From positions 33,835,119 to 33,899,118 of the forward strand of contig OX424559.1 in the NCBI GenBank assembly GCA_949152475.1: DNA of 64,000 bases. Reading direction: 5' to 3'. Source of the stretch: Terebella lapidaria (Eukaryota > Annelida > Polychaeta > Terebellida > Terebellidae). Position 1 is the first letter of the stretch. Each line of letters begins with the position of its first letter. This document shows, one piece after another, positions 525 through 60,837 of the stretch. The notes beneath the pieces were generated by a model. That model was not told where the DNA came from. It saw only the letters and a program-made list of their open reading frames with translations, and made no database searches. The position numbers and the translations under genes are program-made.

Positions 525-779
525 ACGGTCCTGTTGGAATCACACTGAGCCCTCTAGGTCCTCTCACTGTCATGGAGGGAGATGAAGTGATTGTCACATG
601 TAATTCAGACTGTTCACCAGCTTGTACTTACACATGGACACGGTCCAGTGATTCTTGGACTCACAATGGTCCAGAACTCAGATTCCCAAATATACAAAGG
701 ACTGACCACGCCACTTATACCTGCCAGAGTGTGAATGACTATGGCTCGAAGCAGATATCGGTTGTGATGACAGTGAACT
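525..779 (+). CDS. Gene A exon: Ig domain 1
   Basis: Phase 1-1 exon of 255 bp, the usual format for one Ig domain. It shows the canonical core: VTC, then TWTR about a dozen residues later, and D.ATYTC before the last strand. An extra cysteine pair (CSPAC) lies next to the first core cysteine. Acceptor TTTCCAG at 518-524, donor GTAAGT at 780. The exon is almost identical to 52501-52247 on the other strand. Confidence 0.9.
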
Positions 780-3700
780 GTAAGTTTATGTACATTCCAT
801 TGTGCAATGAACTACCATGTTATTCATATTCGATTGAGGTATCCCACACTATCGTTATGAACCCTTTTTACTTGTAGTTAGCACCGAATGGAAAGAATTC
901 ATGACTTCTCCAGAAGAGCTGTTTCATGGCAGTGACGTCACCCTGACTTGTTCGGTCAATAGCAGACCAGATTCTGTTGTTGTTATAAGTAGAGCCTCGA
1001 CTGAGTTGTCTCGATCAGTGAACTCTGAGACAGATTATAAATTTCATCCCATCAGTATTCTGGACTCGGATGTTTACAAATGTTCTGCTGGTAATGGCAT
1101 TGGACCGAACATCACTGACACGGAAGACTTGGATGTTAAAGGTATGTGCCACTTAATGAACGGATAAGAAATTATGTTCCCAAATCCATTAGATTTTTGT
1201 TATCATTTATACATATCTTCGATGTGATCAAATATCATCAAATATTGGCATGCATATGACTGCGTATCAAGCATAGCGTACACAGTTTAATGTGTATTCA
1301 CCATTTCAACAAACATAAAATGATAAGTATGGGACATTTTCAGGGGGCTTCCATTTCTGTGAAGATCAGAGGGAGAATGTATCACACGGCTTGCCTCGGA
1401 ATGTGGATTTCGAAGAACAGATTTGTCAGTTTGCAAACCCTTTCACTGACGTGTCTCGTAGCAACTGGGTGTTTGAACTTTTGAACGAAACCCAAAAACA
1501 GACTTCACTACCCACTGATGTGAACATCACGACAGCGCCAGCTAATCACAAATACAAAAAAACCATAGTGTTCCACATTCCAGAAATAACACCAGAGCAT
1601 TATGGAACTTATAAAATGACCAACGGGAATGAGCATGGCCCAGATGTAGTATTCACTATGTTTCTCACCCCAGAAGGTCGGGCTTCACATTTGCTTAAAA
1701 TACTTATATTTCAATCATGGTTATTGTGTGGCAGTATATTATTAATTATCATGCAACAATTCGTTTTGAATTACAAATGTAATTTGTATGTTGAATATGT
1801 ATATGATTGGTTATAAAATCTTGAATCAACTCCAAATAAAACGAGCTACTTCTTATCCAGAACCACCAGAAGCGCCCCATGGTCTGACTTGTACCAAGAC
1901 GACCTCCATCAGTCTGTACCTGAGCTGGTACGCTGGGTACGACGGGGGACCTGACCAAACATTTGTACTCGAGTACACTAACACAGCTACAGGTGACACT
2001 TACCAAGTGGAGATAGACGGATCTGAAGTACTGGAAGGTGAATTAGTATCATACAAACTGGTGGATGAGACCAGAGTTCTGCCTGAACAGACTTACAGAA
2101 TCCAGATCAGTGCACGCAACAGTCAAGGCTTGACACCCGGTCCCGTGATTACTAACACAACCATGGGTAAGAGGGTATTTGTTTGGTGGTATTGTGATTG
2201 TACGTGTGTAATTGTATGTAAGTTTTTGACACAATTTTATTTTTCCCAGCTTCTTTGGAGATAGAGAGCAGCTCACCGACAATATCCATTGAAGATGACA
2301 AAGCTCTGATCACTTGGGAAATATCAAATTTGGAGCAAGTGTCCCATCTCATCATTGTGGCGTGTGACTCTACTGATGACACGAACTGTGAGACAACAAA
2401 TGTGACAGAACCTTTAGTACAGCCATACATTGCCACATTGCCACCTGCTGATAATTATGTCTTCCTTATCACGTTTTACGATGGAAATCACGTACTTGCC
2501 AGTGCAGAGGAAGAACACATCCCAGGTATTTACATGAGTGCCGCAATATAAATACATGACATGCATCAATAAAGGGTATCCGAGTAGAACAAAATACTCG
2601 AAAACTCCAATGTTACCATCTGTAGTTCGTACTGCCACAATGTATCAAATATTTCAAAATCAAGATGTTTCAAGAGCTATTGTCTGATCCTCGTGATCAT
2701 CTGACCCAAATCTTGGTTAGGGCATTCTCAAGATGTGCGTGTGATATATACAAAACATTTCTTCGTGTATCAGACAATGCAGACATATTGTGGTTCAAGT
2801 GGCGTTTCATGTTCAGCTGTTTATTTTTCTACTCTTATAACTAGTTCATTCACTAGCTCTATTGGTTCGTCAGTGCGCCACGCTCGAGTAATTTCCATAA
2901 ACATCCACTCCCCAGTGGGTCGATAAAAGTTTCTTCTCACACTCTGCTGTGACATCACAGTGATGACACCAGTTCCGGTGTTCCGCTGAAACACACAATT
3001 TTCAAACTTATTTATTTCACAGACATTTACTTGATATTATATCATAAGTCGATGTACCATTTAGTATACAAGTGAAACGATACAAATATGGCGGCTTTTA
3101 TCGCATGTAAAATCCGAAGAAATTTGTTTTTACAAAGTTTGAAAAAGAGTGACCCACAAGAACCACCTCAGAATTATCCCCTCGTTTATAATTCCACTCC
3201 TTCCATAATTATCATCTCAGAATTTTAAACGCGTTTATAATACCCACCCGGTCTATAATTAACACGTCATCCGCTCACGTGCTGTTGTCGCGCCTGTGTT
3301 TGCAACAATCGAAATATCATTGAATCCTTAAATACTAATTTGAATACTTAATACTGGGTATTGATTCCACGTCTATTGAATCCCTCATCCTCCTTATTGG
3401 GTTCTTGTTGTTAAAGTCCAACTAAAGTCAGGATAGTTGGACAACTAAAGTTTAACACAAAACCTCATGTGATTATGGACCATAACTTCATTTAGTATGG
3501 TCGGATCAATTTGAAATTTTATATGTTTTCATTTGGCACAAAATCATATTCTTTTACTGAATTTCAGATTTCTATCTTGAAAACTGAAAAAGTTGGCACT
3601 CTACCCCAATGTTAAATGTTGGACACGAATCAAATCACAGGAATTCAAGCAAGTTCAGGGTTTTCATGATCTTTATTCCGCTAAGAAATGTAATATGAGG

Positions 3701-5725
3701 AAAGTTTTTGAGCAGGAAGAATCATATACGTGTATTCTGATAAAATATCATTTTTACAAAGTACCGTGCAATGCAAATATCGAACAATATGCAAAATTGA
3801 ACATTGGAGTAGATTGAACATTGGAGTAGATTGCCAACTTTTTCAGTTTTCAAGATGAAGATAGAAGTCTGAAATTTGTTGAAAAAATACCATTTTATGC
3901 CGAATGGGAACAAACAAATTTTCAAATTAATATGACAATCTTGAACGAAGTTATGGCTAAATCATATGAGGTTTTGTGTTGAACTTGACTTTAACATTTG
4001 ATATCATTAATAATTAGAATCAGTATTCATGACGTCACAATGGAAAAGCAAGTAAATTAAGCTAATGAAACTTCTATTTTCCCACCACGTATGATGATAT
4101 TAGGTGCTTTATTTGTCATGTACTTCGTTAGGCATGAGATCAATCTGTGATAACAATGGGGTGATAATTCTGCAGTGATAATTATTGAAGGGGTGGAAAT
4201 TATGAAGTCGGTGATAAATCTGAGGTGATATTTATAGACGGGGTGGTTATATAAATGGGGTGGAGATATATGAGGTGACAATTCTAGATGGGGTGGAAAT
4301 TATAAATGCTATGATAATTCTGAGGTGGTAAATATAGACGGGGTAGATATAAGCGGAGTGAAAATTATGAAGTGATAATTATAGACGAGGTGGAAATTAT
4401 AAACGGGGTGATAATTCTGGTGTGAAAATTATAGTCGGGGCGAAAATTATAAAAGCTGTGATAATTCTGAGGTGGTAAATATAGACGGGGTGGATATTAT
4501 AAACGGACGATACTGAATTGATCATTATAGACGAGGTGGAAATTATAAACGTTGTGATAATTCTGAGATGATAAATATAGACGAGGTGATAACTATAAAC
4601 TCGGGGAGAATAATGAGGTGGTAATTGTAGATTGGGTAGATATAGTAAACGCGCTGATACTTCTGAGGTGGTAATAATAAATGGGGTGAAAATTGCCAAA
4701 ACGTATTGAGCCACCGTAGATATGTGACCAGCAGTTTTTTTAAATATTTAGATATGCGACCAGGATTTTTTTCAATATTTTTTTTTTCTTATTGTTTGAT
4801 GCATGTTGTCTAAACGGATACTCATTCCAAAATTGAAACCAGACAATCAGTTGTTGTTAATATATGGACAATGGATTGAGAATGAATTTAGTTTATGATT
4901 TGGCTGTTAAGTTACAAGTGCACAATCGATTCTATAATGTGAACTCTCTGGTGTAGCCTGAATACGAAAAACAAGTATAATTGATATCCCGTCACTCCGT
5001 GATGTCACTTCGTAGTCCGGATTCATCCCAAAATGTTTCCTACACGAGACCAGAAATTTACTTCAGGAATGATTTCGGAATCATTTTCTGATGTGGACTA
5101 GCGATTTCGGAATGGTTCTGGGATGATTCATGATTAAAGGCCTATTGTAGAAGTAAATTCCGAAAGATAAACATTTTGGAAGAAAGAAACACGCATACTA
5201 AAACTTATCATGCAGCCTTTTTTCGAGAACTCGTTTACACATAACCCCATACGAGTGTATAACGTTCATGCCTTCACCATAACAACATTTTTTTCGTAGG
5301 TGGAAAGGACTGGACATTGGTGATAATTGGCGTAGTTGCTGGCGTCGCTGCTGCAGCCATTATTGTGGTCATCCTCGTTGTCTTGTGGAGGAAGGGGATC
5401 CTGTCTCGGGGTGAGTCGTAGCATCCTTATTGTATATATTACCCAAGATTAGATGCGTCGGTCCGACTGGGACAGGAGCCATCTACTCCAACATATGGGC
5501 TGCGGGAATATACATTTATTTCACTGGACTCAAATTTTTGGCAGTGAATTTTACCTAGTAACATATGAATGTCCGTACTATTTTGAAATGTCAAATATAC
5601 GTTGCTCAAACCACTCGTTCACGGGGTCAAGGTCAACACCTTCTTTTGTTCCTTTTATCTTCTTTTTCTTTATCATTTTATAAGTATTATTATTATTACT
5701 GTTATTATTTATATTATTATTATTG

Positions 5726-5770
<45 letters not shown>

Positions 5771-8700
5771 GACAAACCACCTGGCACGAGTCGCCAACCT
5801 GGGTATGATATATACACTATAATATAATTTTATTGTATAACATTTATTGTACTACACGATGTACTTGTATATAAATCTATCGACCTGTCAGGAACTTGTA
5901 TATGTTAGGCCAAAACAAAATTATATGTTTCTGGTTATCGCGCGTGTCACTCCAAACCTCGCACATCATTTCATTTTTTTTTAAATCGCGTGTGACACTT
6001 AAAATACCTTGCGTCATTTCGTTTTTTAATTTTTTGTTTTCACCGCCGCCCTCGACGTTTGGTTATTGAATGATAAACGAGCAAATACAGTCTCATATTT
6101 TACATTTTTACATCAAGTAGCAGTTATTATAGAGTTATGGAAATTTGTGAGTTGTGTTTGTGTTGAAGAATATGGGCCTAGTAAAAAAAGTTCATCAAAA
6201 GATGGTTTGCAGGTGACGTCACAATCCTGTTTTGAGAACGGGATCAGTATTGTATTGCCGTCCACTCAACGTGTTGCCGTCCAGTCAATTCTTTTGTTAA
6301 TAGGCGTTGAATTGAGCAATAGCAAACCATCTATACATAAATGTAGCCGTGTTCGTGTTGTGTTGTGTGTCAGCTCAAATTTCACAAACGCTGATATTAT
6401 TAACAATGTGGATTTAGTCAGTGCGGCGATCTGAAAGCAATAATAATGTCGAGTGAGTAACTGTGCGGTGCAATCGTCATCAGTCAAATGAGTGGCAAAT
6501 CGCGGCTAGCAACGGGTAACAAACTGTTTTATAAGTGCGCGGCCGGAAATCACATGGCGAGCGATACTGATCACACCCATGGGATGAATGAAATGCAGAT
6601 GCAAATTGGTATGAACATGGACGAAAGGAATTATTAAGATTGCGTAACGGGTACGATCCACGTAATTTCAATGGTTTCATACCACGTGCAATTTTGGTTC
6701 ATATCTCGGCCGTTTCATAACAAACTCACATGAAATTTGGAATATTTATTCTGTATTTATCTATGAAGCTAACGCGAATAAGAGATTGAAGATTTCGTTG
6801 ATAAATTAGTATATAAATGGAGTTGAATGCTGCTTGAACAAATGTAACTTACGTTGCGTACACGTAGCAATACATGGTGTGGTTTCTGAACTGCAGCGAG
6901 TGCACATATCCGCGATCAATAACCTACCTTTAATTTTTAAGTATCCCATCGATAATCATGTCAAATTGATGTGCAAATGTGTATATCTATTGCGATTCCC
7001 TGAAAATGTCTTGTGCCGCTGGTCAGTGAAGCGCTAAGTACAGATCAGCGGATTATTCGTATGGCAAATACTGTCAATGCTCAGGTATCGAGAACGTTGT
7101 ACTCAGGTGTGAGATGTTGTTGTGATTTTGGTTCTATACTACTTTGAGAAATTATTCGAGTCGCTGAATCCTTGATAAAGTTTGAGGTTGAGTTCACAAT
7201 GCCAACGGCTATACACGTTATTAATGCGACTGACAATCAATTTCTTTTGCCCAGTGTATTTTCATTGCGCATGATATGTAGCATGCTATTTTGATCATCG
7301 AAATCAAGTGTTGAGGTAAATCCTAAAACAGGCAGTAGGTTATTGTTCTATGATATGTAATTCAACCATAGTCAAGAAACTCTACTCTAAAACGCTGTCA
7401 GCTTGCTATGTAAGTTACATTTGATTGGCGGTGTATAACGTTCAGGATCTGTATGAATATCGACTGGGTCTTCAATCTGGCCATTGGACAAGCCTTGTAG
7501 TCATGGTTAGACCCTAGGCAAAAATTTTCAGCGCAATCCACCTCCAAACTGCAGAGTTATAAGCCAAACAAAACAGACCAGAATTCTGCTGACAAGGCAT
7601 GGATCCTGACTGAGAAGCATCCTTAAAAGACGGAAGCAACTTAGACAACCATATGTACAAAACCTGTGTAATGCTACAGAATATCCGGCCTCATAAAGTT
7701 TAGTTAATAACATGTTTATCAAAGAATACAAATGTCTTTTTTTAGAATATTAAAAACAGTAGAATGTTCTATGCACATAATGTATTCAACATAGCCTATA
7801 TGTGTTTTACTGAGGAAAAATTGTAGCTTTCATGGCTTCGGCGTGCACGACTCGCGCTGATTTACGAAAAACAAAATCGCATCACCACATCACTTTTGGA
7901 AGACCATTGTAACCAGAAATATATAATTTTTTTTTTGGCCTAAAGACGTGAAGTGCAGTAATTAGTTACTCTTCAATAGGGGAAGTGGTGGGGAAGGATT
8001 TCAAAATCCTTCTGCGGTCGAGTTTGCCGACGAAGAGATGGATCCGACTCCCTACAGTACTTCATCCATGGCAATGGGAAGTCAAAACGTACAGGTTGAA
8101 ATATCACCTTACGGTTCAACACCGGCGACACGGATGCAGAATCCAAATGTCAACACCGCAACGGAAAACATATCCCCATACGGATCAACTCCTGCAAATG
8201 GTGTCCCCAACAAACCAGCCAAACCTACAACACCAGGTAAGCAAACACTGCTTCAACGTGTGGGAAGTATCTGAGCAACGACATTTTTACATTTGTTTCT
8301 GCATTAAATGTACCGTTTATATAAATCCGTGTGTCTCGATGTATGCTCATATTTTGTTGAATATTGTCAATCTCTCAGATCCAGATAAGAACGTGTATTC
8401 AGAGGTGGACAAAGACAAGAAGCCAACTCCGGACGTTTATAGCGAAATCAGAAAAGACAGGAAGCCTGGAGTTGCACCAAAACCAACCGGTTCTTCCAGT
8501 TCTGATACCACGTCCAGACCCGGTGAGAAAAAGTTCTCGAAATCGAATTTTGAATATTTTTTGTCGAAAATAGTCGTTTTTATGAAGACAATAGCCGTTC
8601 CAACAGTTACAACATATATAATTTTCTTCCACTTTCCATGCCCTGAAACTCGTATAACGTTTGAAAATTATTTCGAGGCGCACTGTATTCTACACGACAT

Positions 8701-11700
8701 TGTGCATGCTTCTTAACCCAGTATTTTCAATATCCATGCTATATAGTGTACACGCCCCATACTTTCTAGCATCGGTTTACCCTCCAGCCAAAACACCTGC
8801 AATATACACGGATGTGAAGAAGGATAAAGCTGGACGAATGAAGGTTGTGGCCGGCCAAGGTGATGATGTTTCCGTAATACAACTGATGATTTTCGAGCTG
8901 CTATAGTTCATATGGCCATTTCTTAAATGTATTCTGTAACATGTTCGGATACGAAGAAAAGAAAATGCTTATGTACTGCTCATAATAATCATATATATAT
9001 CCATAACTTTTTGGATATGATTCATTGGTATTATTTGTGTGAATCTGGCAGCTATTGTGGTCAGTTCAACTCAATTTTACAGTCTATTCGGACCCATAGA
9101 TATATCATGTTCGAATTTGTGGTGTACTTGAACTTGCACCAATTCCAAGACGGTACTCGTTTTCGTTATTGTAAAGTTCGGCGGGCGCCCGCTACAGGGC
9201 GTCCGGCACTACTCTACGGAATACTACAACCAGGTACAGTCAGCCCGGAACGAGTCCGGCCGTCATACACTACGACATAACACATGCATCTCACCAACTC
9301 CTTAACTACAACATGCATATTACATAGTTATGGTAATGTAGCCGTATGTAGAGCCCGAGATGCCATGGGAGCGGCACCACGGAACCCGTACACGTGGGCA
9401 TGTTGCTGGCCGGCCTCGAGGTTATTCCTTCATGGTAACTAACACGAAAATTAGTCCCGCGAAATTGGTGGCCAGCTGGTTCTACATACCCAAGTGGGTG
9501 AAGCGTCGTTGTTACCAGCGCTCGTCGATGGCGCCAATAGCGCCGGTTAGAACTGTCCGTCTTACCGTCGCTCGTCCATGACGCCGATACCGCCGGTCAG
9601 AAGCGTCATTCTTACCGTCGCTCGTCGATGACGCCAATACCGCCGGTTAGGACTGTCAATCTCACCGTAAGTCGTCGATGCCGCCAATAGCGCCGGTTAG
9701 GACTGTCTTTCTTACTGTCGGTCGTCTATGCCGCCAATAGCGCCAGTTAGAACTGTCCGTCTTACCGTCGCTCGTCGATGCTGCCAATAGCGCCGGTTAG
9801 GACTGTCGTTCTTACCGTCGGCTGTCGATGCCGCCAATACCGCCGGTTAGGACTGTCTTTCTTACCGTCGGTCGTCGATGCCGCCAATAACGCCAATTAG
9901 AACTGTCCGTCTTACCGTCGCTCGTCGATGCCGCCAATACTGCCGGTTAGGACTGTCTTTCTTACCATCGGTCATCGATGACGCCAATAGCGCTGGTTAG
10001 GACTGTCTTTCTTACCATCGGTCGTTGATGCCGCCAATAGCGCCGGTTAGGACTGTCCGTCTTACCATCGCTCGTTGATGCCGCCAATAGCGCCGGTTAC
10101 AATAGCGTCGGTTAGGACTGTCGTTCTTACCGTCGGCCGTCGATGCCGCCAATACCGCCGGTTAGGACTGTCTTTCTTACCGTCGGTCGTCGATGCCGCC
10201 AATAACGCCAATTAGAACTGTCTGTCTTACCGTTGCTCGTCGATGCCGCCAATACCGCCGGTTAGGACTGTCTTTCTTACCATCGGTCATTGATGACGCC
10301 AATAGCGCTGGTTAGGACTGTCTTTCTTACCATCGGTCGTCGATGCCGCAAATAGCGCCGGTTAGAACTGTCGGTCTTACCGTCGCTCGTCCATGCCGCC
10401 AATAGCGCCGGTTAGGACTGTTTTTCTTACCGTCGCTCGTCGATGATGCCAATAGCGTGGTTAGGACTGTCTTTCTTATCGTCGCTCGTCGATAACGCCA
10501 ATACCGCCGGATAGAATTTTCGGTCTTACCGTCGCTCGTCGATGCCGCCAATAGCGCCGGTTAGAACTGTCCGTCTTACCGTCGCTCGTCGATGACGCCA
10601 ATACCGCCGGTTAGGACTGTCCGTCTTACTGTCGCTCATTGATGCCGCGAATAGCGCCGATTAGGACTGTCTTTCTTACCGTCGGTCGTCGTTGCCGCCA
10701 ATAGCGCCGGTTAGGACTGTCTTTCTGACCGTCACTCGTCGATGCCGCCAATACCGCCGGTTAGAACTGTCCGTCTTACTGTTGCTCGTCGATGCCGCCA
10801 ATAGCGCTGGTTAGGATTGTCTTTCTTACCGTCGCTCGTCGATGACGCCAATAGCGCCGGTTAGAACTGTCTTTCTTACCGTCGGTCGTCGATGCCGCCA
10901 ATACCGCCGGTTAGAACTGTCCGTCTTACCGTCGCTCGTCGATGCTGCCAATAGTGCCGGTTAGGACTGTCTTTCTTATCGTCGCTCGTCGATGAGGCCA
11001 ATACCGCCGGTTAGAATTGTCCGTCTTACCGTCGCTCGTTGATGCCGCCAATAGCGCCGGTTAGGACTGTCTTTCTTACCGTTGCTCATCGATGACGCCA
11101 ATAGCGCCGGTTAGGACTGTCTTTCTTACCATCGGTCGTCGATGCCGCCAATAGCCATGGTTATAACTGTCCGTCTTACCGTCGCTCGTCGATGCCGCCA
11201 ATAGCGCCGGTTAGGACTGTCTTTCTTACCGTCGGTCGTCGATGCCGCCAATAGCGCCGGTTAGGACTGTCTTTCTGACCGTCGGTCGTTGATGCCGCCA
11301 ATAGTGCCGGTTAGGACTGCCCGTCTTACCGTCGCTCGTCGATGCCGCCAATACCGCCGGTTACGAAGCGTGTCTCCCAGGCTGACATTAAAACATCATT
11401 TGACCAGATAAAGAGATCAACCTGTGTGTCACACTAAATAAACACTTCTCCATCATAACTATTTGTCATTCCAGCATCTATAGCTAAAATTGACTCCATG
11501 TATACCTTACAAGAAGTCACATCTACCATTCTACCCTTCTGTGACTCTTGCTTGTCTCCTGAGCGGACATTCATCACTTGACTAGATATTTTTGTCTTCA
11601 TAAAAACACCGGCGCTATTGGCGGCATCAACCAGTGACAGTAAGAACGACGCTTGTATCCGGCGGTATTGGCGGCATCGACGAGCGACGATAAGAACGAC

Positions 11701-14700
11701 GCTTCTAACCAGCGGTATTGGCGGCATCGACGAGCGACGGTAAGACGGACAGTCCTATCCGGCGGTATTGGCGGCATCGACGAGCGACAGTCAGAAAGAC
11801 AGTCCTAACCGGCGCTATTGTCGGCATCATTGCTCGTGTCCTAACCGGCGGTATTGGCGTCATCGACGAGCGACGGTAAGAACGACGCTTCTAACCGGCG
11901 CTATTGGCGGCATCGACGAGCGACGGTAAGAAAGACAGTCCTAACCGGCGGTATTGGTGTCATCGATGACCGACGGTGAGAACGACGCTTCTAACCGGCG
12001 TTATTGGCGGCATCGACGAGCAACGGTAAGAAAGACAATCCTAACCGGCGCTATTGGCGGCATCGATGTCCGACGGTAAGAACGACGCTTCTAACCGGCG
12101 CTACTGGCGGCATCGATGAGCGACGGTAAGAAAGACAGTCCTAACCGGCGGTATTGGCGGCATCGACGGGCGACGGTAAGAACGACGCTTCTAACCGGCG
12201 TTATTGGCGGAATCGACGAGCGACGGTAAGAGAGACAATGCTAACCGGCGCTATTGGCGGCATCGACGACCGACGGTAAGAACGACGCTTCTAACTGGTG
12301 CTATTGGCGGCATCGACGAGCGACGGTAAGAAAGACGGTCCTCACCTGCGGTATTGGCATCATCGACGAGCGACGGTAAGAACGACGCTTCTAACCGGCG
12401 CTATTGGCGGCATCGACGAGCGACGGTAAGACGGACAGTTCTAACCGGCGCTATTGGCGGCATCGACGAGCGACGGTAAGAAAGACAGTCCTAACTGGCG
12501 GTATTGGTGGCATCGACGAGCGACAGTGAGAACGACGCTTCTAACCGGCGTTATTGGCGGCATCGACGAGCGACGGTAAGAAAGACAATGCTAACTGGCG
12601 CTATTGGCGGCATCGACGAGCGACGGTAAGAACGACGCTTCTAACCGGCGCTATTGGCGGCATCGACGAGCGACGGTAAGACGGACAGTTCTAACCGGCG
12701 CTATTGGCGGCATCGACGAGCGACGGTAAGAAAGACGGTCCTAACCTGCGGTATTGGCATCATCGACGAGCGACGGTAAGAACGACGCTTCTAACCGGCG
12801 CTATTGGCGGCATCTACGAGCGACGGTAAGACGGACAGTTCTAACCGGCGCTATTGGCGGCATCGACGACCGACGGTAAGAAAGACAATCCTAACCGGCG
12901 CTATTGGCGGCATCGACGAGCGACGGTAAGAACGACGCTTCTAACCGGCGCTATTGGCGGCATCGACTAGCGACGGTAAGAAAGACAGTCCTAACTGGCG
13001 GTATTGGCGGCATCGACGAGCGACGGTGAGAACGACGTTTCTAACCGGCGTTATTGGCGGCATCGACGAGCGACGGTAAGAAAGACAATGCTAACCGGCG
13101 CTATTGGCGGCATCGACGACCGATGGTAAGAACGACGCTTCTAACTGGCGCTATTGGCGGCATCGACGAGCGACGGTAAGATGGACAGTTCTAACCGGCG
13201 CTATTGGCGGCATCGACGACCGACGGTAAGAAAGACAGTCCTAACCGGCGCTATTGGCGGCATCGACGAGCGACGGTAAGACGGACAGTTCTAACCGGCG
13301 CTATTGGCGGCATCGACGACCGACGGTAAGAAAGACAATCCTAACCGGCGCTATTGGCGGCATCGACGAGCGACGGTAAGAACGACGCTTCTAAACGGCG
13401 CTATTGGCGGGATTGACGAGCGACGGTAAGACAGACAGTTCTAACCGGCGCTCTTGGCGGCATGGACAACCGACGGTAAGAAAGACAGTTCTAACCGGCG
13501 GTATTGGCGGCAGCGACGAGCGACGGACAAAAATTGGGTGGACTGAAAAATTTCGCGGAGGTTACCAGCATCGACGACCGACGGTAAGAACGACACTTCT
13601 AACTGGCGCTATTGGTGGCATCGACGAGCGACGGTAAGACTGACAGTTCTAACCGGCGCTATTGGCGGCATCGACGAGCGACAGTAAGAAAGACGGTCCT
13701 AACCTGCGGTATTGGCATCATCGACGAGCGACGGTAAGAATGACGCTTCTAACCGGCGCTATTGGCGGCATCGACGAGCGACTGTAAGATGGACAGTTCT
13801 AACTGGCACTATTGGCGGCATCGACGACCGACGGTAAGAAAGACGATCCTAACCTGCGGTATTGGCGGCATCGACGAGCGACGGTAAGAACAATGCTTCT
13901 AACCGGCGCTATTGGCGGCATAGACGAGCGACGGTAAGACGGACAGTTCTAACCGGCGCTCTTGGCGGCATCGACAACCGACGGTAAGAAAGACAGTTCT
14001 AACCGGCGGTATTGGCAGCATCGACGAGCGACGGACAATAATTGGGTGGACTGAAAAATTTCGCGGATGTTACCATGAAGGGATAACCCGCCGAAGGCAC
14101 TGTCACAGAGATGGAACCCTGAGCCAGCCCGACGGTCTGCCAGAGCCTGTGTCACACCACCCCAGGTGGTAGAAAACCGGTGATCCACAGGGCGTGAGCC
14201 CCCGAGTCAACAACGGTCTCCCCCACCTGGGCCCCAAATCTAAATCGTCCCCAGGGCCCGCGTGGGCCTTACCCAAGACACAGGGACGTAAAGCTCATGG
14301 CGAGCCTCTCGTCCTGCCTCTTGGCTTGCTCTGGGACAATCTCACAGACCAAGCAAGTGCTCGCGTATATATCGAGCCAAGAGGCGGGAGGAGAAACTAG
14401 GTCAAGCCATTGTTATAGTTTACTGGGCGCGATCAAGTACAGTGCTTTGGTAGGCAGCGCACACTCCAAACTCGAGCGGTCTAAAAATAGGCCGTAATAC
14501 TTGCTAGTGTTCTGCGAAGACTCCTGCCGCGATCTTTGGGCAAAATCGCCACATTATATTGTCATCTAAACTTTGGTCAATCTTTCTCTCAACAGAAGCG
14601 CGGTTTCGGAGGGATGACCGGCCGTATGCCAATGTTGTAACCACAACAGCTGAAGGTGAACAATTGAATATGAAAAACAACTAATATAAATGAAATATTT

Positions 14701-17950: not shown

Positions 17951-17954
17951 CAAA

Positions 17955-21545: not shown

Positions 21546-21651
21546 TTAATTATGTAACACTCCAGTCAATTCCTTGGTCATTTCTGTGATCTGGGCAATT
21601 GTATGTCGTCTATCAGGCTTGTACATCCAGCACAGGCTCATCAGGTCATGT
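21546..21651 (-). CDS. Gene B last coding exon: kinase-like C-terminus
   Basis: Phase 2 start after TTGTCACAG. It encodes HDLMSLCWMYKPDRRHTIAQ, matching the conserved LM..CW...P..RP.F..I end of tyrosine kinases. About a dozen more residues follow before TAA at 21548-21546. The kinase domain thus ends the protein with no C-terminal extension. Confidence 0.87.
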
Positions 21652-45600: not shown

Positions 45601-48600
45601 AAACACTGTTTTAAAGCGGCGTCACACTGGATACCCCACGATACCCCATAGTACCCCTTTGCTTGTGGATTTATTATGTTCTTGGGTACATCTGTGCGAA
45701 ATATTTAGTGTCTCAGGATGTTCCTTCATCATGAAAACGATCACCAAAGTTGACCAATTTCCAACATTTTTTACTCCTAGAAGTAAATAAAAATTTACTG
45801 CAACTTTTGTCAACGCTGGTAGGTAAATAATTTTTTTTACTTGATTTTTTTTTACTCGTAGCAGTCAACTTCGGTTTACTGTAAAACCTAGTGTTCCTGA
45901 CTGATACATAATAATCAGTTTTGAGTATATTGAACGTAACTACAGTATTCTATTGAGTAGTTCTCCGAATTCAGTGTGCATTTATATCGCCAAACTCGAC
46001 AACCTAAAATTAATCTTGCCTGTTTTCTGTGAAATTTGCGGAAAAGTACCACCTCCAGTGACCAAATCTTCAAACTGATTGCGCACTGTGTAAAATACCT
46101 GATCAACGGTATTGGCACTAGCATTCTCATATAGTACAACGTCCTTACGCTGCTTCGGATGCGTCTGTTTAAATACACAACACATATAACCAGAGCCACT
46201 CCCCGCAAACTGTTAAAGCGCTGGATATGCATGTGTGAAAACGGACACGACACATGTGTGAGAGATATGATGCATGTGTGAAAAGATAGTACATATGTGT
46301 GAGTAAATCAGGCCCGAACACAATTATATCATTATTGTGTGGTTAGGACGTATTTGCACAGAACCAACAGCCTACAATTATATATGGGAACAATATCGAT
46401 CATTTAAAACCAAGCAGCGGAAATGGTATGCACAAATTAATTTAGTGCAGTAAGTCACACATGTTGCGCTTGTTTTGGTTGTAAACTTCTATATATTGCA
46501 AAAGTTTGCGGTTCTGGTGGCAAAAGTGTACATAGAAATACCATTGAAAACCAAATCACACACGTAGTGTCACCATTACGCCTAAAATTTAACGTTATTT
46601 GATGGTGTTAGTGCGAAATGATACAATGCATGTGTGAGGAACATTCGCTATGATATGATGCATGTGTGAGAGGATAGTACACATGTGTGAGAGGATAGTA
46701 CACATGTGTGATCACATTACACGAGAAATGAACCAAGAAATGATGGTATGTGTGTGCTAAACCTAATAGCGCAACCTGCAGCCAGTTATTATGATTAGGA
46801 TATACAGGTATTTGTAACATAGCAACGTATAGATACTAATATCGACAACGTCAATGCGTCCCAGTCGGGAATTTCCAGCTTTTAAAGCCTAAACTGTCGT
46901 CCGACTTGTCATATGGTAACACAGGCCTCGCCAATTCCAATAAACGCCAGGTCCAGATAACGACTGAAGTCAATAAACGCCGGGTTCTAATAGACGCCGG
47001 GTCTATAGAGGATTTTTATAACTTGTTTACACTGTTTTCGACTAATATTTTTGCGATGCTAGATGGTATCGTTGTATAACTTGACATACTTCACCAGGGA
47101 GTCAAACGGCAAATGTGCATCAAATTTCAGATTTCTATCACGAAAACTGCAAAGTTGGCAGTCTACCTCAATGTTAAATTTAGCCCTGACGTTTAGTTTC
47201 TGGGCCCGCACATAACTTTGTGCATTTGCTCGGTTTTCTGGCGGTGCAAGAAAACCGATTTTCGAAATCAACATGTTCGTGTAGAATACACCTAAATGTG
47301 TCTTTTGGTCCAAAATCGCAATTATACTTCGAATCCGTATAGATGTAATCAGGACCAAATCCTCGAATATTCTCATATTCTCGAGATCTCGTTTTGGGCT
47401 GAAATTTAACATTGGGGTAGATTGCCAACTTATTCAATTTTTCCGATAGAAGTCTGGAAAAACCGGTGTAAACAAGTTAGAAAAATCAGAGTATAGAGTA
47501 TAACTGAAGTTTTACGGTATTACTGATTTATTTAAATTTTCCCACGGGGATTGTTGCGAGTAATAATGAAAACAAGATATGTATACAAATTTATCATCAT
47601 AGAAGTGTATCGAGAGCCTTCGGTGCCGTGCAGCTAGTGAATGTGGACTAAATCAAGTGGAACCATATCGAATGAATACGTTTGTACAATTAATGCTATT
47701 GCCGCTGTGAAGAGTGGGCAAATGTCGGCATACAGAGCCAGTCTTGAATGTGGAGTGTCAAAGACATGATTGTAGTACATTAATTTGTCCAACCAAATAA
47801 GCAGACGAACATAATTTGTAGTAATATTAAGTACATATACAGTACATAAATTTACTGGAAAATATTAATCATCTTTATAAAGAAAACTACAATAAAAGCA
47901 TATAAATAAATTGATCGAGGATCCTGTTGTATTCTAGTAATACACTGACATGTCAATATATTGAATGATGAACATGTAAGTGTAGAATCACTTACAAAAA
48001 GTGTGCCAGCAAATCGAGAGATTTCGCGTCAAGGACGAAGGAAATCATCATTTGAGGTACTAGATGTCTAAACGTACATACCAAAGAGGAAGTTGATATT
48101 TTATTATATAATTCAGTGCGAGTGTACCGTAATGATTTACCTGACATCAAGTATTGGACCAGTTAAGTGACCAGAAAGACCCTAGAGGTGCAGAGACAAT
48201 GGAGCTGAAACAGCTGACAGTTAAATATTATAGGCCATAAGATAACAATAGAGTCAAGGTATATCATTCATACATACCATCCAATTTTTAGTAGGGTATT
48301 TTATAGTTATAAATAGTAGTAACATGGTATTTCATGTTATAAAAACACAAAGCGACAAACAGAAGCAGTTGTTCAGTGCCACAAGTTTTGCTCGGACATG
48401 TACCACGACCAAGAAGATTTATTTATATAGGATGTTTTCCTCGGGCTCAACGTACATCAATTCCCCCAAAGCAGTCTTTGTTCTATAAGCGTGATATCCT
48501 TTTATCATCATGCAAAATTCAATTTTAACCATCACTTCTGACACTCGGTCCACGCTGTAATCACCTATAGTCACAAATAGTGTAATGGTTTTCAAGCATG

Positions 48601-51600
48601 CTAGTATTTTCGATTAAAACATGCTGAATGCACCTTACGCAGATTTCGTGGCTGCTTGGATGTGGTCGAAAGCCGAACAATATTACTGCATAACTTAGTC
48701 GATGAGCCTAGCTGCCAACTACAACCCTAAATAATTTGGGCAAACTCACTTGTATTGTATTTTCAAATATCACCAAGATCGTTCAGTAGCCTACATTTTT
48801 TTACAAAAAACCGCATATTGTGCAATAACCCTATAATATGTTGACAGCTTACAACCGCCAAAGTAATAGGATATATTTTATGGACGAGAGCACCCGCCTC
48901 TCAAAGTAATATTCATGTTGGTAATTGATTGGTAAATGAGATGATTATTTTGATGAATAAAATGAATATTCTCGCATAATTATTTAAACAAATTGACCCT
49001 AAACTGGTAAGATGATAATTTCTACATAAAACCATCACTATGATGTGTTTGGTAGCAACTGAAGGTTACATGTGATATTTCAAAGGTTACAAGCTGGAAT
49101 TGTTCTCACTCCCGGTTCCAATCCCGAGTACCCGGGAAAGAACATTTCTTATTCCCGTTTCCCGGGAACAGGAGATCCGGGAATATATCAAAACATAGTA
49201 AAAATATGTATTTGAATGAATGACACTCCTCACACTTGCAGCAAAATATCATATCATTTCTCACACATGCATACTATCTCCTCACACATATGTACTGTCT
49301 TCTCACACATGTGTATTGACATGGTGATATTATTTTGACCAAAAAACTGCGTGAATAAAGCAAATAAACAGCGATTTTCACCATCGGGCCAGTCAATAGT
49401 TATTCACGTGTACCATAAATCACGTATTGGGGATTATCATTAGCTTTTCATACGTATTTAAAATATATTGCCATCGTAACACTTGTATGCGTTTTTAGTT
49501 CCAATAGAACTGGTCTACATTACTGCAGAGCATGTTGTAATACATATAATGCGACACAACTTCTTACTTTCTGGTTCCAGTGTCCTGTTTTAGGTATACC
49601 ACTATTTTCTGGCCATGGAACCATGCTGGGTGACAATTACTCACACATATGTACTATCTTTTCACACATGCATCGTATCTTTCATACATGTGTCGTGTCC
49701 GTTTTCACCCATGCATATCCAGCGCTTTAACAGTTTGCGGGGAGTGAGAGCAAAAGTTATCATTATTCACATTCATTCGTATCAACCCACCTTCAATATT
49801 ATTCCTTTCCTCCACAAGACAACGATAACAACTATTAGGACAGCCACCATTACAGCAACAACAACACCGACAGCTATAGCGATGACACTGGTTGCAGCCG
49901 ATTCTGGATATGTAAAGTTCCTGATGATATTAGTACAACGAACTTATAAATAAATGTAGAATAATATACAACAATATATGTGAACAATATCAAGAATGAT
50001 AACGACATGCTATATGGTCTTTGTTCTCGGTCATTGTTAGCTAGTGGCAGGACAACAATATGAACTGTAGTAATGGTTCGCAAGCCATATAAAAATGTAT
50101 GCACCTACTGTTTCAGAACTGAACACGGAACAACTCTGAGATATTGGACCATACAATATATCTGATAGTCGAAGTAATGTCGTCCATAAAATCGTAGGTA
50201 CACCTTGAGAGTTTGCCGTGCTACTGGGGGGGGGGGTCATTTGATCAAAAGAGCATTGCTTCCTGATGATCACAAACTTCCGAAATAATATATGGACATG
50301 CTTCATTGCTCTTTAATTTTGGGTGGGTACATATTAACAATACGAAATAAAACCGGTTCAACCAGAGTTCTTGGGTATCTATTGTCCGGGGCATCATGTA
50401 TATGCAAGTATCAATAAAGTATTGCCAAAACCGTAGTATTTCGCTGATAATAACATAACAAAAGTTAATTTGGGATAAAACCTAATCAGGTCTTTATACT
50501 TTGGCGCTCGTGTAATACCTGTCAGATGTTCTTCCTCTGCACTGGCAAGCACGTGAATTCCATCGTAAAATGTGATCAGGAAGACAAAATTATCAGCAGG
50601 TGGCAATGTGACAATGTACGGCTGTACTAAAGGTTCCGTCACATTCATTGTCTCACAGTTTGTGTCATCAGTAGAGTCACACGCCACAATCGTGAGATGG
50701 GACACTTGCTCCAAATTTGATATTTCCCAAGTGATCAGAGCTTTGTCATCCTCAATGGATATTGTTGGTGAGCTGCTCTCTATCTCCAAAGAAGCTAGGC
50801 AGAATAAAATTGTGTCAAAAACGTAGATACAATTATACACGTACAATAACAATATCACCAAACAAATACCCTCTTACCCATGGTTCTATTAGTAGTGACA
50901 GGACCGGGTGTTAAGCCTTTACTGTTGCGTGCACTGATCTGGATTCTGTAAGTCTGTTCGGGCAGTACTCTGGTCTCATCCACCAGTTTGTACGATACTA
51001 GTTCACTTTCCAGTACTTCAGATCCGTCTATCTCCACTTGGTACGTGTCACCTGTGGCTGTATTAGTGTACTCGAGTACAAAGGTTTGGTCCGGTCCCCC
51101 GTCGTACCCTGCGTACCAGCTTAGGTACAGACTGATGGATGTCGTCTTGGTACAAGTCAGACCATAGGGCGTGTTCGGTGGTTCTGGGTAAAGAGGGACT
51201 TTTATTTGGAGTTGATTCGAAGTTTCATGAACAATCATGTATATATTCAACATACAAGTACATTTGTTATTCGAAACGAATTGTTGCGTGATAATCAATA
51301 ACATACTGCCACGCAATAGCCATGATTAAGATGTAAGTATTTTAAGCCAACCTTCTGGGGTGAGAAACATGGTGAATTCTAGATCCGGGCCATGCTCATT
51401 CCCGTTGGTCATTTTGTATGTTCCATAATGCTCTGGTTTTATTTCCGTAATATGGAAAACTATCATCTTTTTGTATTTGTGATCTGCTGGCGCTGTTGTG
51501 ATGTTCACATCAGTGGGTAGTGAAGTCTGACTCTGGGTTTCATTCAGAAGCTCAAACACCCAGTTGCTACGAGACACGTCATTGAAAGGGTTTGCAAACT

Positions 51601-52501
51601 GACAAATCTGTTCTTCGAAATCCACATTCCGAGGCAAGCCGTGTAATACACTCTCCCTCTGGTCTTCACAGAAATGGAAGCCCCCTAAAAATGTCCCATA
51701 CTTATCATTATATATTTGTTGAAATGATGAATACACATTGAACTGGTCCGCTATGCTTGATACTCAGTCATATGCATGCCTATATTTGATGATATTTGAT
51801 CACATCGAAGATATGTATAAATGACAATGAAAATCTATTGGATTTGGGAACATAATTCCTCACCGTTCATTTAGTGTCACATACCTTTAACATCCAGATC
51901 TTCCGTGTCAGTGATGTTCGGCCCAATACCATTACCAGCAGAACACTTATAGACATCTGAGTCCAGAATACTGATGGGCTCAAATTTATAATCTGTCTCA
52001 GAGTTCACTGATCGAGACAACTCAGTCGAGGCTCTACTTATATCAACGACAGAATCGGGTCTGCTGTTGACGGAACAAGTCAGGGTGACGTCACTGCCAT
52101 GAAACAGCTCTTCTGGAGAAGTCATGAATTCTTTCCATTCGGTGCTAACTACAAGTAAAAAGGGTTCATAACGATAGTGTGGGATACCTCAATCGAATAT
52201 GAATAACATGGTAGTTCATTGCACAATGGAATGTACATAAACTTACAGTTCACTGTCATCACAACCGATATCTGCTTCGAGCCATAGTCATTCACACTCT
52301 GGCAGGTATAAGTGGCGTGGTCAGTCCTTTGTATATTTGGGAATCTGAGTTCTGGACCATTGTGAGTCCAAGAATCACTGGACCGTGTCCATGTGAAAGT
52401 ACAAGCTGGTGAACAGTCTGAATTACATGTGACAATCACTTCATCTCCCTCCATGACAGTGAGTGGACCTGGAGGGCTTAGTGTTAATCCAAGAGGACCG
52501 T
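21546..52501 (-). CDS. Gene B: Ig/FN3 receptor with pseudokinase domain (16 exons seen, 5' partial)
   Basis: Hand-assembled on the minus strand: 52501-52247, 52148-51885, 51684-51352, 51183-50878, 50794-50519 (three Ig, two FN3), 49903-49791 (TM), 46164-46099 and 26557-26438 (juxtamembrane), then 26326-26182, 25977-25870, 25764-25604, 25530-25402, 22240-22132, 21922-21826 and 21651-21546 (kinase-like domain). All phases match, giving 861 residues in frame to TAA at 21548-21546. The kinase-like part has a VTVKK lysine, a MEYAPAGNLRQYL hinge, SAPEV, SDIWAFGILVWEIF and CWMYKPDRR. HRDLAARN reads FYCLSTDH and DFG reads GFS, so catalysis is unlikely. It is probably a single-pass receptor pseudokinase. 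The weakest link is the 19.5-kb intron between 46099 and 26557, supported by phase (0-0) and continuity of tyrosine-rich sequence only. No signal peptide exon was recognised upstream. Confidence 0.7.
21826..21922 (-). CDS. Gene B exon: kinase-like helix G region
   Basis: Phase 1-2 exon of 97 bp. GERPLSNLTDKEARERLKRG and then QKLKIANSFSQD fit the usual PY.....E....L..G.R...P..C...LY. Acceptor TTTTCAG, donor GTTAGT. Confidence 0.82.
22132..22240 (-). CDS. Gene B exon: kinase-like APE motif to helix F
   Basis: Phase 0-1 exon of 109 bp. It encodes PIRWSAPEVIELRHVHESD and then IWAFGILVWEIFNLG, an excellent match to the P+1 loop, APE and helix F of tyrosine kinases (typically SDVWSFGVLLWEIF). Acceptor TATCGCAG, donor GTGCGT. 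The 3.2-kb intron before it carries a duplicated repeat block and a hairpin. Confidence 0.88.
22388..23683 (+). repeat. Dispersed nuclear-receptor-half-site repeat in a gene B intron
   Basis: It starts with TTAGCCCAAAGGCTAGATAG and GGTTACCGGAC, and has internal AAGGTCA-rich units. It carries two tail sections ending in CGCCACGGCAATAGGTTATC and GGTCCGGTAACCTA. The outer GGTTACCGGAC and GTCCGGTAACC ends are inverted, like short terminal repeats. Confidence 0.75.
24333..24488. repeat. Hairpin palindrome with GGGTTTC/GAAACCC arms
   Basis: Arms 24341-24385 and 24432-24480 are reverse complements with few mismatches (GGGGGTTATTGCACAAT against ATTTTGTGCAATAACCCCC). The loop is short and GC-rich. 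No coding content. Confidence 0.85.
24830..25400. repeat. Segment duplicated at 34.1-34.7 kb
   Basis: Shares ordered blocks with 34100-34690: GAGCAAGAGTCC, GGTATTT/GGGTTTTTTAA, TATCGTGCCT and CATAGTATCC.GCGAACTTTG. The block ends at the edge of the kinase-like exon 25530-25402 without including it. Confidence 0.6.
25402..25530 (-). CDS. Gene B exon: kinase-like catalytic and activation loops, catalytic residues replaced
   Basis: Phase 0-0 exon of 129 bp. FYCLSTDHVLMGTGQICKL aligns with HRDLAARNVLVGEGQxCKL, so the catalytic Asp is Cys and the Mg-binding Asn is His. TGFSS replaces TDFGL, so the DFG Asp is Gly. Framework residues around these sites are conserved, which argues for a maintained pseudokinase and not random decay. 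Acceptor GTTTCAG, donor GTATTG. Confidence 0.82.
25604..25764 (-). CDS. Gene B exon: kinase-like hinge and helices D-E
   Basis: Phase 1-0 exon of 161 bp. It encodes DYMLMEYAPAGNLRQYLSS, a clear tyrosine-kinase hinge and helix D, then a spacer and LQQITSGLNVVVSLK, matching helix E before the catalytic loop. Acceptor CACTGACAG, donor GTGAGT. Confidence 0.85.
25870..25977 (-). CDS. Gene B exon: kinase-like helix C
   Basis: Phase 1-1 exon of 108 bp: KRNADVLEEYLNSAAKIL, then a PHTIGCYS segment. This matches the helix C to strand 4 region (typically EV.il..l.HPNIv.l). A glutamate suitable for the lysine salt bridge is present. Acceptor TTTCCAAG, donor GTTTGT. Confidence 0.75.
26182..26326 (-). CDS. 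Gene B exon: juxtamembrane end and kinase-like N-lobe strands 1-3
   Basis: Phase 0-1 exon of 145 bp. It starts with TTVYDSLQ, then NIVVGSIISEGPVFRI aligns with the glycine-rich loop (one of the usual glycines kept in place), and QRVTVKKAG aligns with the strand carrying the ATP-binding lysine. The loop is degenerate compared with GxGxFG. Donor TACG/GTGATG. Confidence 0.68.
26438..26557 (-). CDS. Gene B exon: juxtamembrane tyrosine exon 2
   Basis: A 40-codon phase 0-0 exon after TTTTGCACAG. It contains NDVQYEDIGK (VQYEDI fits the ITIM consensus) and KLYEGLNED. Donor AAG/GTATTT. It lies immediately upstream of the kinase N-lobe exon and fits the acidic, tyrosine-bearing juxtamembrane segment of receptor kinases. 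Confidence 0.72.
26655..26830 (+). repeat. Inverted copy of a sequence next to the 46.1-kb exon
   Basis: About 175 bases starting ATGCGCAATCAGTTTGAAG match the reverse complement of 45920-46095. Each copy lies close to one of the two gene B juxtamembrane exons. Confidence 0.75.
27504..27603. repeat. Near-perfect 100-bp hairpin palindrome
   Basis: GATAATGCAC..AGACG at the left is mirrored by CGTC..TTGTGCATTATC at the right. The centre is CGTGCCCTTCGGGCACTCGG. It is followed by CAGGAACACTAGGTTTTACA, which recurs in reverse at about 45880-45900. Confidence 0.9.
27860..28470. repeat. ~220-bp tandem unit with an internal hairpin, about three copies
   Basis: Each unit has AAGTTGACTGCTACGAGTA, GCTGAATGAAGTTAACA and TTGTTAGCCAACAA. 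Each also has the hairpin CATACTGGCCATAGTATT and its mirror, at about 27925-27960, 28135-28172 and 28353-28390. Confidence 0.8.
28598..30470 (+). repeat. Dispersed nuclear-receptor-half-site repeat, longest copy
   Basis: It starts TTAGCCCAAGGGCTAAGAAA and then GGTTACCGGACAAT. About five head units of ~133 bp follow (exact AGGTCAAAGGTCA at about 28811, 28944 and 29076), then three rounds of the CCCATTTGGGCCGAG tail. It ends with GACGGACG runs and GGTTATCGGACC. The long open frame 29755-30303 falls in the tail repeats and is not a gene. Confidence 0.85.
30480..31530. other. Gene B intron sequence without recognised features
   Basis: AT-rich, no domain-bearing frame, no clear repeat apart from short duplicated phrases (CACAGTATTCAGC at about 31170 and 31290). 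Confidence 0.45.
31536..32363. repeat. Foldback element with palindromic 20-bp satellite arms (3)
   Basis: The terminal inverted repeats are GTGGCTGATATATGCCATAG and its mirror at 32340-32363. Arms 31618-31805 and 31895-32295 are tandem copies of a ~20-bp unit (AATATTAAATACGCGTACTT), itself close to a palindrome around ACGCGT. The centre is about 90 bp and non-repetitive. Confidence 0.9.
32370..33260. other. Gene B intron sequence without recognised features
   Basis: No exon, RNA gene or clear repeat seen. Confidence 0.4.
33270..34190. repeat. ~132-bp satellite, about six to seven copies
   Basis: The unit contains CAATAATAAATATTTCTCGTC, TTTATTGTGGTCAATAATAG and GTGAAATCTCTACTGGAC; starts recur near 33466, 33595, 33728, 33863, 33995 and 34126. 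A diverged single unit lies at about 24840-25000. Because 132 is a multiple of 3, frames run through several units without meaning a gene. Confidence 0.85.
35200..39060. repeat. 1.22-kb unit in three tandem copies
   Basis: The marker GATGATACAAAACTGAG lies at 35247, 37000 and 38224. Copies 2 and 3 are 1224 bp apart; copy 1 is longer because of an insertion (35487-36040). Copy 3 is cut short at about 39060. Each unit can be read as a short cysteine-bearing frame (YSKCESYSEGS.STFVFYL), interrupted differently in each copy. Confidence 0.85.
35487..36040. repeat. Insertion with TCATACGTATGA palindromic array
   Basis: Absent from the other two 1.22-kb units. It holds about 18 copies of TCATACGTATGAG-like palindromes (35535-35835) followed by ~200 bp of unique sequence. 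Probably a non-autonomous mobile element; no terminal repeats recognised. Confidence 0.7.
39498..39540 (+). repeat. GTCCGTCC microsatellite
   Basis: A run of CCGT/GTCC units directly before the 169-bp satellite; the same tetramer family appears inverted (GGACGGAC) in the dispersed repeat tails. Confidence 0.9.
39541..40716 (+). repeat. 169-bp satellite, seven copies
   Basis: The unit contains CTTGTGAACGCGATAACTT, CATACCAGAGGTGCATCATG and GGGTGACCTTGACC. Copies are nearly identical, so the array is young. 169 is not a multiple of 3, so each unit yields the same short frame in shifting phase; these frames are not genes. Confidence 0.95.
40720..44190. other. Gene B intron with diverged related repeats
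   Basis: It contains scattered relatives of the 44.2-45.1 kb duplication (for example 41220-41360 and 41820-41960), a poly-G run at about 41681-41694 and poly-C at about 42848-42856. No exon recognised. Confidence 0.4.
44190..45090. repeat. ~520-bp tandem duplication
   Basis: Two copies (about 44235-44590 and 44715-45085) share ACGTCTGCACATCAACTAAA, GTGCACAAATACATCAGGCA and ATGTATATGTGCACTTTT. A (GAT)n run at 44198-44225 precedes the first. Confidence 0.8.
46099..46164 (-). CDS. Gene B exon: juxtamembrane tyrosine exon 1
   Basis: A 22-codon phase 0-0 exon after TTTAAACAG. It contains KQRKDVVLYENASAN; the basic start suits a membrane-proximal position and YENA is a Grb2-type YxN site. Donor CAG/GTATTT. 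Its length and phases fit between the TM exon and 26557-26438. Confidence 0.6.
47095..47465. repeat. Palindrome related to the core of foldback 1
   Basis: Arms 47122-47190 and 47395-47455 are inverted (TTTCAGATTTCTATCACGAA against TTCCGATAGAAGTCTGG). They match the arms at 3560-3620 and 3795-3875. The loops also share a readable frame beginning YPNVK. The palindrome sits inside the larger inverted-repeat element at 46190-49747. Confidence 0.75.
47470..49200. other. Interior of the 3.55-kb element
   Basis: AT-rich, no domain-bearing frame. A CCCGGGAAC-rich palindromic patch lies at 49105-49180. Confidence 0.4.
49791..49903 (-). CDS. Gene B exon: transmembrane segment
   Basis: It follows acceptor ATATCCAG and encodes ESAATS, a hydrophobic run of about 23 residues rich in V, A and I, and then VVLWRKGIILK. 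The last eight core residues match the gene A TM exon while the helix differs. The 113-bp length makes the exon end in phase 0, unlike gene A (phase 1). That fits the phase 0 juxtamembrane exons of this gene. Donor GTGGGT. Confidence 0.8.
50221..50238. repeat. Poly-G run in a gene B intron
   Basis: A homopolymer of about 11 G lies in the intron between FN3-2 and TM exons (50518-49904). A Ser/Thr-containing frame beside it (50306-50037, minus) does not fit the phase 1-1 junction and is not called an exon. Confidence 0.6.
50519..50794 (-). CDS. Gene B exon: FN3-like domain 2
   Basis: Phase 1-1, 276 bp, with ALITWEISN, HLTIVACDS and FVFLITFYDGI. The intron after it resembles gene A for about 30 bases and then the two genes become unalike by eye. 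Confidence 0.82.
50878..51183 (-). CDS. Gene B exon: FN3 domain 1
   Basis: Phase 1-1, 306 bp, with SLYLSWYAGYDGG, FVLEYTN and YRIQISARNSKG. It opens with EPPNTP, where gene A has EPPEAP. Confidence 0.9.
51352..51684 (-). CDS. Gene B exon: degenerate Ig-like domain 3
   Basis: Phase 1-1, 333 bp, the same length as in gene A, again with YGTYKM in place of the YxC core. It keeps HFCEDQ and ICQFAN. That both copies share the missing cysteine shows the loss predates the duplication. Confidence 0.8.
51885..52148 (-). CDS. Gene B exon: Ig domain 2
   Basis: Phase 1-1, 264 bp, with LTCSV and SDVYKCSAGN. It is nearly identical to 878-1141; the few changes seen are conservative (VVVIS to VVDIS, FHPIS to FEPIS). 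Confidence 0.88.
52247..52501 (-). CDS. Gene B exon: Ig domain 1
   Basis: Phase 1-1, 255 bp, with Ig core VTC, TWTR and ATYTC. It differs from the gene A exon at only a few residues (for example F for Y before TWTR). Acceptor TTTCCAG, donor GTAAGT. The exon upstream, with the start codon, was not found between here and the window end. Confidence 0.9.
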
Positions 52502-60812: not shown

Positions 60813-60837
60813 GAGCGTTTGTTGCCGTGCTATACAA

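Follow-up and report, generated by a model that had tools for sequence, protein, structure and literature searches.

Paired receptors of vertebrate immunity couple one ligand to two signals, and a locus of the annelid Terebella lapidaria raises the question of whether an invertebrate genome holds such a unit. The locus lies in a 64,000-nucleotide stretch (C5:33835119-33899118; hereafter the window) of a 762 Mb assembly in 438 contigs, the one genome analysed here. The initial annotation of the window described two convergent genes with the same ectodomain, followed by an ITIM-bearing tail in gene A and a kinase-like domain in gene B, and proposed an invertebrate paired-receptor locus. We conclude, at a probability of roughly 0.6, that the two genes form a paired-receptor unit within an array of Ig/fn3 receptors.

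Two inverted copies of one ectodomain

As annotated, five ectodomain exons are present twice in inverted orientation, with equal lengths (255, 264, 333, 306 and 276 bp) and similar introns. In gene A they occupy 525..779, 878..1141, 1344..1676, 1861..2166 and 2250..2525 of the plus strand, and in gene B 52247..52501, 51885..52148, 51352..51684, 50878..51183 and 50519..50794 of the minus strand; each of the ten is bordered by AG and GT and has phase 1-1. The domain labels given to these exons (Ig, Ig, Ig-like, FN3, FN3) hold to different degrees. Exons 1 and 2 match Ig domains above the Pfam cut-off in both genes (Ig and Ig_2 in gene A, Ig for both exons in gene B). The Ig-like label of exon 3 is unproven, this exon having no Pfam match and an AF2 pLDDT of 47 for the gene A copy. 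Exon 4 passes as fn3 in gene A (26.6 bits against a cut-off of 25), but the gene B copy scores 20.5 bits and is termed fn3-like here. Exon 5, also without a Pfam match, is assigned to fn3 by predicted fold only (AF2 pLDDT 88.8 for gene A), the top PDB match being an fn3 domain at E 2e-3, with none at E<=0.001.

The likeness of the two copies extends to the introns: positions 378-2559 align with the inverted copy at 91.4% identity over 2186 columns, introns included (BLASTN). Across exons 1-5, 30 of 477 residues differ between A and B (NG86 dN 0.033, dS 0.204). The duplicated block exceeds the window, beginning about 4.6 kb before its start on the A side and extending to about 79.05 kb on the B side, where the outer copies (-4574 to -2532 and 79055 to 76466) match at 85-89% in four pieces. 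Four further upstream exons are open in both copies (79-90% amino acid identity), so each ectodomain comprises at least nine exons. In gene A, Pfam places two of these four upstream exons above an Ig cut-off; another gives E 1e-5, below the cut-offs, and the first has no Ig match. The arms thus defined span about 7.1 kb (A) and 28.6 kb (B), with about 48-50 kb between them. A signal-peptide exon shared by A and B was not found; the A side gave one candidate and the B side 12 overlapping or repeated ones (best local score 22).

The window also carries an interspersed 134-bp tandem repeat family (18019-19590, 28641-30085 and 52642-53308), which recurs upstream of the window, a 169-bp tandem repeat at 39549-40863 with a similar open frame in each unit, and, at 59838-63818, frames that by eye resemble the endonuclease and reverse transcriptase of a non-LTR retroelement.

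The copies continue into different tails

Downstream of its ectodomain, gene A has a transmembrane (TM) exon at 5300..5410 (21-residue hydropathy mean 3.24; phase 1-1) and three tail exons, placed by frame chain, with motif scans for the latter two: 7997..8236, with PYSTS and two copies of SPYGSTP, 8379..8522, with VYSEV and VYSEI, and 8788..8859, with IYTDV. The nine exons from 525 to 8859 form a single continuous frame of 666 aa, but the link to the last exon is incomplete. This exon (15835..16017, plus strand), which holds the ITIM-type motifs IMYAQL and VEYASI and the stop, and whose acceptor and phase are kept in a paralogue, opens in phase 0, whereas the exon ending at 8859 closes in phase 1. 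Since the same phase mismatch is seen in the distant paralogue, one small exon is absent from the gene A model; comparison with the paralogue parts examined gave no match for it. A 41-nt candidate of phase 1-0 at 14596..14636 (plus strand), one of several from the scan, keeps the frame open and nothing more, without support from the paralogue. The interval between tail exon 3 and the last exon contains arrays of a 50-bp minisatellite in opposite orientations (9400-14000), with inverted arms of about 900 bp that are 85-88% alike.

For gene B, the annotated path from 52501-50519 through 49903, 46164 and 26557 to 21546 agrees with the gene model, in which 15 exons have phases that chain in an open frame of 872 aa to the stop. 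On the minus strand, the ectodomain is followed by a TM exon (49791..49903; hydropathy and frame chain), a juxtamembrane exon with VLYENA (46099..46164) and an exon with the ITAM-like stretch DVQYEDI-x13-YEGL (26438..26557; motif scan and frame chain). The 13-residue spacing of this stretch is longer than that of a canonical ITAM; a pattern allowing spacings of 6-14 was reached in 8 of 2000 shuffles of the tail. The kinase-like part starts with a degenerate N-lobe (26149..26326), in which the match to PF07714 begins at profile position 58, and continues through exons at 25870..25977, 25604..25764, 25402..25530, 22132..22240 (with APE and SDIWAFG), 21826..21922 and 21546..21651, the last including the stop; these were placed by frame chain, with PDB alignment for 25402..25530 and, in addition to the chain, for 22132..22240. 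Overall it scores 120.7 bits against PF07714 over profile positions 58-256 of 258, with EGFR, FGFR and RET kinases as the best PDB sequence matches.

The description of this tail as kinase-like is sound, in that such a domain is present in frame, but its reading as a kinase is not. In the exon at 25402..25530, HRD is replaced by FYC and DFG by GFS, eliminating both catalytic aspartates, and the same FYC and GFS are found in the gene B counterpart of a second receptor pair (B2, below). As neither pair retains the aspartates of HRD and DFG, the kinase-like domain of gene B is, judged by its sequence, a pseudokinase, and a kinase output is not supported. An active kinase is likewise ruled out for a relative on contig C1, at 85.55 Mb, which has HYA and GFA at the corresponding positions. 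This relative (C1:85549000-85552500), a pseudokinase outside the receptor array, may have a link to the origin of the gene B tail. In PTK7 and other pseudokinase receptors, too, an ectodomain of Ig type is joined to a kinase domain that has lost catalysis, and gene B resembles this type.

A second convergent pair carries the same two tail types

The initial annotation had suggested a search of related genomes for neighbouring inverted pairs with the same two tails; a second such pair was found within the same genome. A whole-genome search with the gene A tail gave six exon matches (11 candidates scored), four in gene A itself and two at C5:33.535 and 33.547 Mb on the plus strand. With the kinase-like tail as query, we obtained 32 matches, eight in gene B, two at C5:33.580 Mb on the minus strand, two at C1:85.55 Mb and 20 elsewhere. 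These searches found the ITIM-type tail twice in the genome, and within the array two copies of the pseudokinase tail, which has one further relative elsewhere. The matches on C5 belong to A2 (ectodomain at C5:33.525-33.530 Mb, plus strand), which carries the gene A type of tail, and B2 (C5:33.591-33.586 Mb, minus strand), which carries the pseudokinase type. A2 and B2 are convergent, with A on the plus and B on the minus strand as in the window pair (hereafter A1 and B1), and the two pairs are about 0.3 Mb apart.

Among contigs, many small unplaced ones (C25 to C429) have kinase matches with in-frame TAA and TAG and few TGA among the matches listed, and by eye look like ciliate-code DNA from a contaminant or symbiont. 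Among the matches listed from a genome search with PF07714 (136 of 938 candidates scored), none fell in C5:33-35.1 Mb.

Within the second pair, the DNA of A2 and B2 is 97.2% identical over 2146 columns, 97.6% over 465 and 92.5% over 373; after exon 5, identity drops to 82-89% in short pieces. Over exons 1-5, amino acid identity is 93.9% for A1/B1 (dS 0.205) and 94.9% for A2/B2 (dS 0.040), compared with 43.6-45.3% in the four between-pair comparisons, where dS is 2.6-2.8 or not computable. The upstream exons compared agree at 86.1% (A1/B1) and 93.4% (A2/B2) in amino acids. A dN/dS of about 0.62 for A2/B2 indicates weak constraint.

The tails show the reverse relationship, being alike between the pairs. 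The A1 and A2 tails share 89 of 186 aligned residues (about 48%), with all 7 tyrosines kept as against 82 of the 179 other residues, the A2 string used in the motif comparison having been assembled by eye from exon frames. Each of the two tails has two ITIM-type motifs, a count that is weak on its own, as it was reached in 30 (A1) and 56 (A2) of 2000 shuffles. Between B1 and B2, two kinase exons are 57.9% and 63.0% identical and a third 40.3%. Given this likeness of ectodomains within pairs and of tails between pairs, the sequences group by locus in their ectodomains and by type in their tails, as in vertebrate SIGLEC11/SIGLEC16. The simplest history would be that of an ancestral convergent two-tailed pair, duplicated long ago, with ectodomains that were later homogenised at each locus.

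The pairs are part of a receptor array

A genome search with the gene B ectodomain, in which 89 of 296 candidates were scored, gave at least 122 exon matches. Of these, six are on C8 and C61 and 116 on C5, where they fall into 59 groups spread over 33.08-35.07 Mb. With 59 groups of related exons within 2 Mb, an isolated, stand-alone pair is ruled out; one ectodomain type on two unrelated tails, the convergent layout and the recurrence of the pair all stand. In a tree of exon 4, built from 48 of 49 matches (the C61 copy was left out, and groups lacking an exon-4 match are absent), the copies form seven clades of 3 to 21 members plus one lone copy, and some are 100% alike. The first pair falls in a clade with three further array genes, C, D and E, and the second in a clade with a copy at 33.665 Mb, each with support of 100/100.

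In C, D and E, a TM exon directly follows exon 5 and the tails are ITAM-like. The C tail consists of YENM, EVQYENI-x12-YDEL and YDNL, and all of its parts are matched in D and E. Used as a query (34 candidates scored), it hits about 26 places at E<=1. There are 32 such matches, of which 11 remain at E<=0.001, and all 32 are on C5 inside the array. Tails were read directly for C, D, E and four other groups (L043, L044, L045 and L047), of which L045 extends little past the TM; no TM was found for L046 and L048. Where a tail type is given to other members, it rests on the search with the C tail. The ITAM-like pattern with spacings of 6-14 has two matches in each of C, L047 and L043, whose tail strings were joined by eye from exon frames, and none of 2000 shuffles reached this; some of the array spacings are longer than in a canonical ITAM. 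By the array list, 13 of 17 plus-strand groups are next to a following minus-strand group, which is no evidence for convergent neighbours across the array because minus-strand groups make up 42 of the 59.

Parts of the array, C5:34.35-34.37 against 34.80-34.82 Mb and 34.45-34.47 against 35.05-35.06 Mb, look like large segmental duplications or retained haplotypes, with similar gene order and exon-4 copies at 34.350 and 34.803 Mb that are 100% alike. Elsewhere in the genome, long runs of fn3 matches are found at C17:11.66-11.76 and 18.80-18.82 Mb.

Homogenisation extends across the ectodomain clade

A stretch of 323 columns at 631..953, running from within exon 1 through the whole of intron 1 into exon 2, is identical between A1 and B1. 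None of 5000 exon/intron-stratified permutations gave so long a run, the largest being 185, and the stretch is likely the product of recent gene conversion. Across the same interval, A1 is 94.1% identical to D and 84.5% to E. Sites that are informative for A1, B1, D and E favour A1 with B1 in 37 cases and the other two groupings in 20 and 15. For exon 4, the copy closest to A1 is C (94%, with B1 at 92%), and B1 groups with C in the tree (98/84), indicating that copying has been clade-wide and not strictly within the pair. By these comparisons, the homogenised unit is the ectodomain clade, which for the first pair includes C, D and E, and not the pair alone; conversion has also drawn in gene C or its ancestors. 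As a third marker, the TM exons do not follow the tail types cleanly (A1-A2 92, A1-C 88, A1-B1 71, A2-B1 84 and B1-B2 50).

Discussion

In anatomy and evolution, the locus resembles the paired receptors of vertebrates, and in function it is a putative example. Near-equal ectodomains in neighbouring genes, as expected of paired receptors, are found in both A1/B1 and A2/B2, ectodomain likeness kept by gene conversion is indicated as well, and an inhibitory tail opposite an activating one is recognisable at the level of motifs only, with two ITIM-type motifs in A1 and in A2 and one ITAM-like motif in B1. If the genes function as a pair, A and B would bind the same or a similar ligand. The ITIM-type tyrosines of gene A might then recruit an SH2 phosphatase and dampen the response, gene B and the ITAM-like array members might recruit an SH2 kinase and promote it, and the pseudokinase of gene B could act as a scaffold or allosteric partner instead of an enzyme. 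With gene conversion acting between the inverted arms, the two members would continue to follow a common ligand.

The closest parallel is primate SIGLEC11/SIGLEC16, described as paired receptors, one inhibitory and one activating, encoded by opposite-oriented neighbours about 9 kb apart, with ectodomain exons homogenised by gene conversion (PMC5701461). Opposite orientation and ectodomain conversion are shared with the locus studied here. The SIGLEC genes are head-to-head and the activating member signals via an ITAM adaptor, whereas the annelid genes are convergent, with the arms about 48-50 kb apart, and have at least nine ectodomain exons, fn3 domains and a pseudokinase in one tail. Mammalian CEACAM1 and ITAM-type CEACAMs are reported to form a clade that includes ITIM members as well as ITAM-like ones, with likeness maintained by gene conversion and recombination (PMC2832619); we liken this vertebrate family to the annelid locus by description, not by sequence. 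The same applies to the oyster IgIT receptors such as CgIgIT2, molluscan Ig receptors whose immunoreceptor tyrosine motif is called an ITAM in the text of PMC11999971 and inhibitory in titles cited there; they have five Ig domains, and the passages on them mention no inverted partner.

An initial protein search for close relatives gave five weak matches, none closely related, and the best named match to the COI sequence of the assembly was Octopus vulgaris at 87% (partial). In a profile search, the best of three matches (7992 candidates scored) was a 'CUBN-like protein' of Mya arenaria (P0006, 1439 aa; E 9e-52), which combines Ig domains with a TM stretch and a tail that contains VYTDL, IYAQLD and IYINL, and in which, by eye, a segment preceding the TM looks similar to exon 4. 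It differs in its CUB domains and in a Pfam list without fn3, is 24% identical over 36% of the query, and is a single predicted protein with no known partner. In the titles and abstract openings of open-licence literature we found no such case in a mollusc, which is weak evidence of its being unreported.

A possible but rather unlikely alternative is that duplication and conversion across the array, without functional pairing, left similar ectodomains on different tails as a by-product, in which case the proteins may be adhesion molecules or lone receptors. The abundance of related exons on C5 (59 groups within 2 Mb), the 48 exon-4 copies in seven clades plus a lone copy, some of them 100% alike, the presence of C, D and E in the clade of the first pair with A1 closest to C in exon 4, and the A2/B2 dN/dS of about 0.62 are all in line with such a process. 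It does not readily explain why both rare tails are seen only as convergent partners of one ectodomain clade, twice, with the same order and orientation in both pairs, or why the gene A tail has kept its tyrosines where the remaining tail diverges. We think it improbable that the genes serve self/non-self or cell-cell recognition, in place of pathogen recognition, as a polymorphic clustered Ig family like the Hydractinia allorecognition complex. The clustering of these Ig-type genes and their ITAM- and ITIM-like tails would fit this role, as candidate allorecognition genes of Hydractinia are described with ITAM/ITIM domains (PMC12065747) and the Alr family is given as 41 genes in one complex (PMC11999971), but the architecture here includes fn3 domains, and the fester proteins of Botryllus are themselves described as having no known signalling domain (PMC12065747).

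An assembly artefact, with haplotypes or collapsed repeats set as false inverted copies, is extremely improbable. Other parts of the array do look like mutual repeats 0.45-0.6 Mb apart, and similar matches are found on the unplaced contig C61, but the arms of the first pair differ by about 9% and in their insertions, each tail is specific to its gene, and a distantly related pair repeats the layout; on the arm differences and the second pair, we rejected this as the main reading. A quite different role for the inverted arms, to which we give little credence, is that of a recombination switch, in which a crossover inverts the segment with both tails and swaps them between the two promoter-plus-ectodomain units. 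If true, both tail orientations would be expected in populations, even in haemocyte lineages, and the switch would explain why the ectodomains, and not the tails, are homogenised.

Should the paired-receptor reading hold in its functional sense, the locus would represent invertebrate paired receptors with the evolutionary mark of their vertebrate counterparts, namely ectodomains homogenised and tails kept apart. One member would bear a pseudokinase, and the same ectodomain clade would also be found on ITAM-like members of the array. Because the same genome holds a distant duplicate of the pair, the locus would allow a direct test of whether ligands drive the co-evolution of ectodomains outside vertebrates.
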